From Methanosarcina horonobensis HB-1 = JCM 15518 (GTDB lineage: Archaea; Halobacteriota; Methanosarcinia; Methanosarcinales; Methanosarcinaceae): a DNA stretch of 64,000 nucleotides. The stretch lies in the NCBI RefSeq assembly GCF_000970285.1, contig NZ_CP009516.1:4939036-5003035 (forward strand). The letters run 5' to 3'. Under the pieces are notes generated by a model, which worked only from the letters and a program-made list of their open reading frames with translations, was not told the DNA's origin and made no database searches. The translations under genes and the position numbers were made by a program. Positions 60,034 through 64,000 of the stretch are shown here, in pieces (positions within the stretch are counted from its first letter, which is position 1; each line of letters starts with the position of its first letter).

Positions 60034-60695
60034 GAGGAGATACTTTTGGAAACGATTTTATAATCTGGAACAGATAAACGGCTTAAGGATATGATATCCT
60101 AATTATCTGAATAAACTATCTTACTCCGCTGGTAAAAATTCTATTCTATAATTTCTAAGTTTTTTATCATACACAAATTTCCTCTATGTTAGCATTTCAG
60201 GGTACAATGCGTAAGATTTAAAGGCAGATCGGTTGGAATTTGCAGGCTAGCGTTCAAACACGTACAACTAAATCTTAACACCAAATAGAGTGAGTTTAGT
60301 GACAAAAAGAAGACATTCAGTTCCCAGTGTTGATCCTTTACTTAACAATATATCGATAGCAGTAAATTTACCGACTTAGTAAAGATAATAAATTCCCGTC
60401 TGATATAAAGTTATTTATTAAGATTTATATTATTAATTTAATATATAAATAAGAGATGAATATTTACTTTGTTTATATATTTTGAGGAAAATTAAATTGT
60501 ATATATTATACGAAAATTTATGCGAAAATAAAAATCTTCAAGCCTTTTGCATCCATCCTGGTTAGTGGCGTACTTTGATAGACTTAAAGAAAATTTTTTT
60601 AATAATTAATAAATTTTTAGGAACATTTGTTAACCTGCAAGAATGCCAAAATTAAGACAAGCTTTTACACAATTTGTTAAAGATAATTAAAAAAG

Positions 60696-60705
60696 TTTAA
60701 TATAG
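60696..60705 (+). promoter_or_regulatory. Box A for the candidate RNA
   Basis: tttaatatag preceded by the purine run aaaaaag (BRE-like). The predicted start, 25-27 bp downstream of its centre, falls at about 60725-60730, a few bases before the first stem of the structured element. Confidence 0.4.
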
Positions 60706-60734
60706 CTGATCTTGCATATACTTTTTCACTTTAA

Positions 60735-60836
60735 CAAGAAAGACTAGCGTGAGCAAGAAAACTTGCGTTAACCAATTACACTAACCTTAAGTGTACCTTC
60801 GCTAGAATTTCTTTACTTTCAGTTTCAGCGAAATTC
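60735..60836 (+). ncRNA. Candidate three-way-junction RNA or cheY leader element
   Basis: Closing stem: 60736-60741 aagaaa pairs with 60808-60813 tttctt, then a 2x2 GA/AA internal loop, then ctagcg (60744-60749) pairs with cgctag (60800-60805). Inside are two perfect hairpins: gcaag-aaaa-cttgc (60753-60766) and tacact-aacctta-agtgta (60777-60795). Further, gaatttc (60805-60811), part of the closing stem, can instead pair with gaaattc (60830-60836), giving two exclusive folds. It is on the cheY strand, 320 bp upstream. It may be a free small RNA or a 5' leader switch. No known family was recognised. Confidence 0.4.
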
Positions 60837-61156
60837 TTCAGTAATTATCTCAATAAAAGTTTTTCAATAACCATCTCAAAAGGAATTTTTCGATAATCAT
60901 CTATATGAATTTTTCAATAACTGTTTCAACATGACCTTCGGTTGCTATATAATCTTCGGTTAATATCACAATACCAGAGGCTAAAAGAAAAGAAACAAAA
61001 CTACAAACCTGGCATGGTTATACGATTACTCTGAATCTAAGGATTTTCAAAAGATTAATGAGGCCAGAACAGCTCTAAAAAGCTTTTGATTTAAAATAGA
61101 AGGCAATACTGCCATAAAAGACATTTAAATCCAATAAAAATAAGGAAGGTATGTAA

Positions 61157-61522
61157 ATGGCAAGAGTTATGATCGTGGACGATGCCGAATTTATGCGAAT
61201 GATAATCAGAGACATCCTTCTAAAGCACGGACACGAGGTAGTTGCTGAGGTAGGGGACGGAGAAGAAGCAATTCAGACATACCTTGAGGTAAAACCTGAC
61301 CTTGTATTAATGGATATAATAATGCCAGATATGGATGGCAAAGAGGCGTTGCAAAAACTTCTTTTAATGGACCCTGATGCGAAAGTAGTAATGTGTTCTT
61401 CTCTTGGGCAGCAGGCTCTGATAACCGAGTCTATTAAAATAGGTGCCATGGGTTTCATAATAAAACCTTTTGAGCCTGATGGCATGCTGGATGTAATTAA
61501 AAAAATTGCTGAACCTAATTAA
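61157..61522 (+). CDS. cheY: Chemotaxis response regulator CheY
   Basis: Single receiver domain, 121 aa: MARVMIVDDAEFMRMIIRDI.., acidic pair Asp8-Asp9, phospho-acceptor Asp53 in LVLMDIIMPDMDGKEAL, Ser/Thr site in VVMCSSLGQQ and Lys in IIKPFEPDG. It is the archaeal CheY type that signals through CheF-like adaptors to the archaellum motor. GGAAGGT precedes the ATG by 6 nt. First gene of the rightward chemotaxis unit; a 1.2-kb spacer with the RNA candidate lies upstream. Confidence 0.95.
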   Translation: MARVMIVDDAEFMRMIIRDILLKHGHEVVAEVGDGEEAIQTYLEVKPDLVLMDIIMPDMDGKEALQKLLLMDPDAKVVMCSSLGQQALITESIKIGAMGFIIKPFEPDGMLDVIKKIAEPN

Positions 61523-61774: not shown

Positions 61775-62736
61775 ATGATTATCCGCGCCATAGTAGACGA
61801 TTCTGCTTTGATTCGCAAAGTTCTTTCCGACATTCTGAACCGGGATCCAAAGATCAGTGTTATCGGAACTGCAGTCAACGGGAAGGAAGGTCTTGAAAAA
61901 GTCAAGAAACTTAGGCCTGACGTAGTACTTCTGGATAACATAATGCCTGTTCTTGACGGCCTTAAGACTCTTAACCATATTATGAAAGAATGTCCAACTC
62001 CTGTTATTATAATGTCGGCTCTGGGGGAAAGAGCTGAAGAGATTACCCTTACAGCTTTTGAGTATGGAGCAGTGGAAGTAATCGAAAAACCCTCAGGTAT
62101 TCTCAGTCAGAACATGCCTGAGATGGCAGAGAAAATTTGCAGAAAAATCAGGACAGCCTCAAAAGCTAACTTAAAAAACCTGGAGCGTATGCGAGGTTTG
62201 GAGCCCTGAAACCAGGGAAAAAGTGAGAAAAAAGAGAGTTCTTGTAGTACAGCACATGCCTTCAGGTTTTACAGCATCTCTCTAAAGAACTTGATAAAAA
62301 GTCAGTTCTCAGAGTAAAAGAGGCACAGGAAGGAGATAGAGTGGAAGAAGGAACTGTGCTTATAGCTCCATAGCTTCGGGTAATTACCACATGGAAATTA
62401 TACGAAATAAAGTAAACGGCCTTGAAGGAAAGGCAGTGCATTTATCTTGTGGCCCTAAAGAATTGGGATCCAGACCTTCAGCAAATGTTCTTTTCAGATC
62501 AGTTGCCCCGATTTACGGTTCCAGAGTTATTTCTCTTATTCTTACCGGAATGTACTACGACAGAGCGGATGGAGCTGAAGAGATTAAAAAGATGAGAGGC
62601 AAAATAATCGCTAGAAGCCCAAAGTTCATTTGTGGTATATGGAATGCCTGGAGAGATTGTAAGACAAAACCTGGCAGATATCGTGCTCCCGGATAAAATG
62701 GCTGAAGAAATTATCAGAATGATTGTATCAGAATGA
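61775..62736 (+). pseudogene. cheB: CheB methylesterase, broken
   Basis: The receiver half is intact as a 144-codon frame (MIIRAIVDDSALIRKVLSDI.., acceptor Asp in VVLLDNIMPVLDG, Lys in VIEKPSG) ending in TGA at 62207. Remains of the methylesterase domain follow in shifting frames: RVLVVQHMPSGFTASL then stop; KELDKKSVLRVKEAQEGDRV..GTVLIAP then stop; GNYHMEIIRNKVNGLEG.. to LTGMYYDRADGAEEIKKM; and finally VVYGMPGEIVRQNLADIVLP to 62736. The GASTGGP segment with the catalytic Ser is missing altogether. At least four lesions: methylesterase activity is lost, though the receiver could still be made. Confidence 0.88.
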
Positions 62737-62848: not shown

Positions 62849-64000
62849 ATGGATATGTCAAAATATACGGGCATTTTCAGGTCCGAATCTGAAAAAAACA
62901 TTAAGGAAATGAGTGATTCCCTGCTATCGCTTGAACAGGATCCTGAAAACGCGGAACAGATAAATGTACTATTCCGTGCAGCTCATACTTTCAAAGGCAT
63001 GGCTGCAACCATGGGATTCAAGCAAATTGTCGAACTAACACATGAGATGGAAAGCCTGATTGATAGATTCCGTACAGGAAAGCTAACCCTTGATTCTTTT
63101 TTAATTGATATTCTTTTAGAATGTTTGGACTCTCTGGAAGGACTTGTTGACAATGTTTGCACAGGCCTGGAAAACAAAATAGAAAAAATAGAAGAGAGAA
63201 AAAACGATGTAAATGAAGGTAATAATTCCTATCCTGATGCCGAAAAGATTCTGAAAACTCTCAGAAATATAAATGCTCCTTCAGAAGATATCCCTCGAAA
63301 AAATGAATCCAATACCTTTTCTACAAATAAAAAGAGGAGAGAAGAAGAAGGAAAAGAAAGATTCGAAAAAGAGGAAGAGGAAAGAAGAGAGAAAGAAGAA
63401 AGTAGAAGAGAGGAGAAAAAGGAGAGAGAGGAAAGAAAAGAGAGAGAGGAGAGGAAAAAAGAGGAGGAAAAGGAGGGAAAGGAAGAAAGAGAAAGAAGAG
63501 AGGAGAAAAAAGAAGAAAGAAAGGAGAAAGGAGAAGAAAGAAAGGAGAAAGGAGAAGAAAGAAAGGAGAAAGGAGAAAAAGAAAAGGAATCCGAAAGCAT
63601 AAATGAAGAACGAAAAGAAAATGAAAGCTTTACTTATTATGAGCTGGGTTTCAGAGTAAAAGAGATGCAAGGCTCAATAATGCAGAGTTCAAAGGCACAG
63701 AGCTCAAAGACACAGGGCTTAAAAATACAAGGTCCAAAGATACAGAGTTCAAGGATTAGCACGGAACAACTAGATAAACTGATGAATCTTGTTGGCGAAC
63801 TCGTAATCAATAGAAGCAGAGTAAAAGAGCTTACAGGAGAAGCGAAATCAAAAGATCTGGAGTTTGCACTCTCCGATTATCAGAAGCTGACCAGAGAACT
63901 TCAGGAAGAAGTATTAGAAATAAGAATGGTTCCTCTGGATCATATAACCAATATGTATCCAAGAATGATAAGGGATCTTTCAAGAGCACAAAATAAGAAA
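62849..64000 (+). CDS. cheA: Chemotaxis histidine kinase CheA, partial
   Basis: 384 codons of the 5' part, open to the window edge. The HPt domain (1-110) has the phosphorylated His46 in FRAAHTFKGMAATMG. Then, where CheA normally has P2, comes a strongly charged Lys/Glu/Arg linker (about 160-248, with EERKEKG three times) and a short repeat region (about 270-302, QSSKAQSSKTQGLKIQG..). The P3 dimerisation helices begin at STEQLDKLMNLVGELVINRSRV (about 305) and the kinase domain at LEIRMVPLDHITNMYPRMIRDLS. AAGGCAGG precedes ATG 62849. The ATP-binding boxes and CheW-binding domain lie outside the window. Confidence 0.93.
   Translation, partial: MDMSKYTGIFRSESEKNIKEMSDSLLSLEQDPENAEQINVLFRAAHTFKGMAATMGFKQIVELTHEMESLIDRFRTGKLTLDSFLIDILLECLDSLEGLVDNVCTGLENKIEKIEERKNDVNEGNNSYPDAEKILKTLRNINAPSEDIPRKNESNTFSTNKKRREEEGKERFEKEEEERREKEESRREEKKEREERKEREERKKEEEKEGKEERERREEKKEERKEKGEERKEKGEERKEKGEKEKESESINEERKENESFTYYELGFRVKEMQGSIMQSSKAQSSKTQGLKIQGPKIQSSRISTEQLDKLMNLVGELVINRSRVKELTGEAKSKDLEFALSDYQKLTRELQEEVLEIRMVPLDHITNMYPRMIRDLSRAQNKK
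63404..63589 (+). repeat. 186-bp pure purine tract in cheA
   Basis: Every plus-strand base from 63404 to 63589 is A or G. It includes three perfect tandem 21-bp units (gaagaaagaaaggagaaagg plus a) at 63512, 63533 and 63554, coding EERKEKG. Such tracts can form triplex DNA and change length by slippage in 21-bp, in-frame steps. Confidence 0.9.

Follow-up and report, generated by a model that had tools for sequence, protein, structure and literature searches.

The spacer between two divergent chemotaxis units in Methanosarcina horonobensis raises the question of whether it gives rise to a structured RNA in its own right or simply holds the promoter and the beginning of the mRNA of the neighbouring cheY operon. 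The window analysed here is a 64-kb stretch of a 5.02-Mb Methanosarcina chromosome, the spacer was compared in 25 Methanosarcina genomes, and all statistics of genome-wide character are based on this window and on pattern searches. The first gene past the spacer is cheY (61157..61522, plus strand). Of 31 Methanosarcina genomes, 27 have an ortholog of it, and in nearly all loci examined a response-regulator gene lies upstream of cheY in divergent orientation. A description of this promoter, or of leader RNAs of Methanosarcina chemotaxis genes, was not found in searches of an open-access library. The reading that we favor, with a probability of roughly 0.8, is an ordinary promoter followed by the first 110 nt of a long cheY-cheB-cheA-cheR leader, accompanied by candidate GTTAAC operators and by a fold that is a species-level, unselected feature.

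The sequence-only reading had placed a box A ahead of its proposed RNA, and this part proved sound, because nothing else in the spacer is as well conserved across the genus as box A and the start region. The conserved block at 60671..60729 (plus strand) reads AAAGATAATTAAAAAAGTTTAATATAG..GCATATA..TTTTTCAC, corresponding to BRE, TATA box, and initiation region. BRE (AAAAAG) and TATA box (TTTAATATAG) occupy 60690..60705 on the plus strand, and TTTAATATAG recurs exactly at the orthologous place in all genus hits except that of G022. Box A, TTTAATATA (60696-60704), lies 24-32 nt ahead of A60728, and the spacing together with the conservation of this A suggests that transcription starts at about this position. 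As in other archaeal BRE/TATA promoters, AAAAAG-TTTAATATAG stands genus-wide, and its spacing to a purine start is the usual one; the differences are that conservation here is unusually strong through the -10 region and that the start is a predicted one.

Of the 27 genomes having this cheY, 25 carry the TTTAATATAG core with its surroundings ahead of it, and the core was found also in a sister genus, where the TATA part occupies the corresponding place in two loci. This count started from cheY and presupposed no promoter; 24 genomes were recovered by one motif and G025 with one change, and of the two exceptions G022 has a degenerate core while none was seen for G019. When the genus was searched for near matches of TTTAATATAG with three mismatches allowed, the closest copy of the core in each genome was the one at this locus, and no regulon for the core appeared elsewhere in the genomes. 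A blastn comparison of the window spacer with 24 loci detected the core in all 24, but these loci had been selected for carrying it, and therefore the independent count is 25 of 27. The depth of these alignments was 23-24 of 24 at 60681-60720, 13 at 60721-60740, and 2 from 60801 onward. Pairwise identity to six relatives likewise falls from 85-93% in the core to 67-83% at 60730-60775 and 51-67% at 60776-60836, and few parts of the spacer are less conserved than the body of the claimed RNA.

The RNA that begins here most likely forms the first part of a long 5′ leader on the mRNA of the cheY operon, because the core keeps its place ahead of the same cheY throughout these genomes and in the sister genus. 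The leader would extend over 60728..61156 on the plus strand (429 nt), if continuous with the operon in the order cheY-cheB-cheA-cheR, and the distance from core to cheY is 253-536 nt in relatives. Long 5′ UTRs have been reported for Methanosarcina mazei mRNAs (PMC3600222), which this leader resembles in its length and in its position ahead of the first gene. Compatible with the leader reading for the plus strand is the possibility that the core acts as a bidirectional promoter for both divergent chemotaxis units, using face-to-face boxes, TTTAATATA on the plus strand and AAAAAGTATATGC (60726-60714) on the minus strand. Both AT boxes are indeed conserved within the core, but the second may instead belong to the plus promoter, as an AT-rich element close to its -10 position, and a separate conserved AT-rich block at 60403..60451 (minus strand; depth 13-14 of 24 relatives), nearer to the divergent gene, could serve the divergent unit of response regulator, MCP, and CheW as its possible promoter. 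We regard the bidirectional arrangement as unlikely, albeit still the best of the alternatives.

The cheB gene of the operon (61775..62724, plus strand) is broken. A tblastn search with the intact CheB of G001 as the query recovered it as three pieces that fall in three frames, interrupted by stops and lacking about 38 residues, and this damage makes relaxed selection on the operon likely. The cheY and cheA genes beside this pseudogene are intact, and the cheA linker (63300-63620, inside cheA) contains a long low-complexity stretch of Glu, Lys, and Arg that is open in several frames. G001 has a full CheB as well as cheC and cheD following cheR, neither of which was found past cheR in the corresponding stretch of the present genome; this absence is not specific, because in G007, too, neither was found next to the operon. 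In four other genomes (G004, G012, G026, and G028) the cheY operon is present and a match to archaeal flagellin was not found, and therefore the chemotaxis unit there may serve something besides swimming.

The stems and the junction on which the RNA proposal was founded do exist as a prediction, since the minimum-energy fold of 60720-60840 contains all of them. A closing stem of 12 bp with one internal loop (60736-60741/60808-60813 and 60744-60749/60800-60805) encloses hairpin 1 (60753-60757/60762-60766) and hairpin 2 (60777-60782/60790-60795). The predicted energy of this fold is -24.7 kcal/mol, with a z of -2.92 and none of 200 shuffles as low; the trimmed segment 60728-60816, whose bounds were picked from the fold itself, gives a z of -3.97 with none of 1000 shuffles as low. 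However, a z of -2.9 is reached by 1.5% of 999 plus-strand 121-nt stretches across the 64 kb, so the stability of the junction is notable rather than rare and alone is not decisive. The junction is retained as a local fold when all 433 nt of the leader are folded, although the leader is not unusually stable overall (z -0.54). Part of the closing stem had also been proposed to switch to a downstream partner, and GAATTTC (60805-60811) and GAAATTC (60830-60836) are certainly complementary as written; the mutually exclusive fold that they were supposed to form is present in no predicted optimum, and a conserved alternative pair of this kind was not found.

Whether the three stems are conserved and covary in relatives had been set beforehand as one test of a new RNA, and the outcome was negative. 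When 25 leaders were folded over their first 115 nt, the mean z was -0.2, and the three-way junction (60736..60813, plus strand) appeared solely in the window genome, with none of 24 relatives predicted alike. The RNAalifold consensus contained no pairs for the sets of 19 and 23 sequences and four pairs, all in hairpin 1, for the seven closest sequences, and a fold common to all members was absent in sets of 7, 16, 19, and 23 sequences. Members of the mazei-like clade share a weak fold (p 0.01-0.035) that could reflect RNA and not a DNA palindrome. Of the 12 closing pairs, 7-10 are kept in the nearest relatives, yet other folds are predicted for them. For the inner part of the closing stem, CTAGCG/CGCTAG, the share of paired cells in relatives is 45-62%, below the mean of 70-77% for all regional stems.

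For the claimed structure as a whole, 75% of cells are paired in 7 sequences and 70% in 19 sequences. Its covariation scored 0.267 against 0.211 in shuffled alignments with 7 sequences (10 of 500 as high) and 0.272 against 0.216 with 19 sequences (none of 500 as high), in shuffles that ignore relatedness among the sequences and for a structure derived from one row of the alignment. We discount this mild excess for those two reasons, and also because other stems of the region are paired about equally often and no single pair covaries above the background set by all column pairs, the smallest E being about 0.1 whether the window row is included or left out. Indeed, related sequences alone can yield such an excess. 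Among these relatives covariation is absent to weak, a result that speaks to the genus rather than to this species alone.

These results bear on the idea, put forward with the fold, that the leader is a riboswitch or an attenuator. Known three-way-junction riboswitches and attenuators likewise place three helices round a junction in an mRNA leader; the present one differs from them in having no conserved junction sequence among the relatives, no conserved expression platform, and no match near threshold in Rfam at either gathering or permissive thresholds. A scan of the leader for a bacterial-type terminator-like site was negative. Structured cis-regulatory RNAs are recognized by a covarying structure and by a conserved junction or a known family, and attenuators by folds that exclude each other and include a terminator; neither set of features was found here, and the idea is left unsupported. 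A narrower version supposes a lineage-specific structured leader, an attenuator or other regulatory RNA, whose active fold is the three-way junction and which controls the cheY operon. The stable fold that persists within the full-leader fold, the slight excess of paired cells and of cells with two-sided changes, and the retention of much of hairpin 1 in the nearest relatives speak for it. It is quite improbable nevertheless: those same relatives fold otherwise in spite of their closing pairs, the 3′ arm falls in the least conserved part, the alternative pair and the terminator fail as described above, and the cheB of the operon to be controlled is broken.

Equally improbable is a small RNA gene that stands alone, transcribed from a promoter of its own and separate from any mRNA leader. 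The promoter and the 429 nt between its predicted start and cheY would suit such a gene, and M. mazei is rich in intergenic sRNAs, 208 sRNAs having been reported (PMC3600222). But the core always stands ahead of the same cheY, in the sister genus as well, and both a conserved RNA body and a terminator-like site are absent.

The promoter and leader reading gains a further element from short GTTAAC motifs at fixed places round the core. In 16 of the 25 genomes a GTTAAC precedes the core start by 56-63 bp (about 61), and in 23 of 25 one follows it at 81-96 bp; the 64-kb window contains 12 copies in total. Three candidate sites are discernible in the window, none assigned to a strand. First, the upstream motif (TTTGTTAACCTG) at 60629..60634 is the one shared by 16 genomes. 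Second, the downstream unit CTTGCGTTAACC at 60762..60773 overlaps hairpin 1 and recurs as the same unit at this place in several of the nearest relatives, 13 bp from the next unit. Third, the degenerate unit ATTACACTAACC at 60775..60786 overlaps hairpin 2 and represents the decayed second downstream copy, relatives having CTTACGTTAACC or similar; most relatives have a GTTAAC here, at +90 to +96 counted from the core start, and the window has lost it. In the clade nearest to the window the downstream element is the unit CTTRCGTTAACC, in some members repeated 13 bp apart. In G009 (L011:1553-1735) the GTTAAC unit has grown to a tandem array of 14 copies of 13 bp directly past the promoter.

The spaced pair TTTGTTAAC...GTTAAC occurs in nine genomes at this locus only; no regulon for the pair was found elsewhere in those genomes, and the flagellin loci showed no consistent motif. 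Archaeal operator-flanked promoters likewise carry short palindromic motifs at fixed places round the core, and to judge from this arrangement the GTTAAC motifs may be operators, that is, protein-binding sites, although the motif pair here is confined to one locus and the operators are candidates. Part of the conservation could come from shared ancestry rather than selection, but the sequence round the motifs has diverged to 50-70% identity. The hairpins overlap these units, and the self-complementary centre of the unit accounts for the ease with which such a leader forms stems. The most doubtful of the alternatives is that the junction is a young regulatory RNA at the species level, recently arisen from these repeat units and now controlling the cheY operon.

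According to the promoter and leader reading, TBP and TFB would bind AAAAAG-TTTAATATAG at 60690-60705, and RNA polymerase would initiate near A60728. A transcription regulator probably recognizes the GTTAAC-centred elements on either side of the start, and the downstream ones may act as a repressor or roadblock site. The stems would stem from diverged copies of the unit with its self-complementary GTTAAC centre in the leader, and drift may have left a stable, unselected junction in this species, whose operon bears the broken cheB. The z of the trimmed fold, the mild covariation excess, and the weak common fold of the mazei-like clade count against this account.

What had been a candidate RNA family is thus removed and replaced by a more modest claim, that of a chemotaxis promoter shared across the genus and flanked by candidate operators. 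The case also shows how repeated palindromic DNA can mimic the stems of an RNA. To our knowledge, no regulator of the Methanosarcina chemotaxis genes has been described, and the GTTAAC elements may therefore be useful as bait for finding one.
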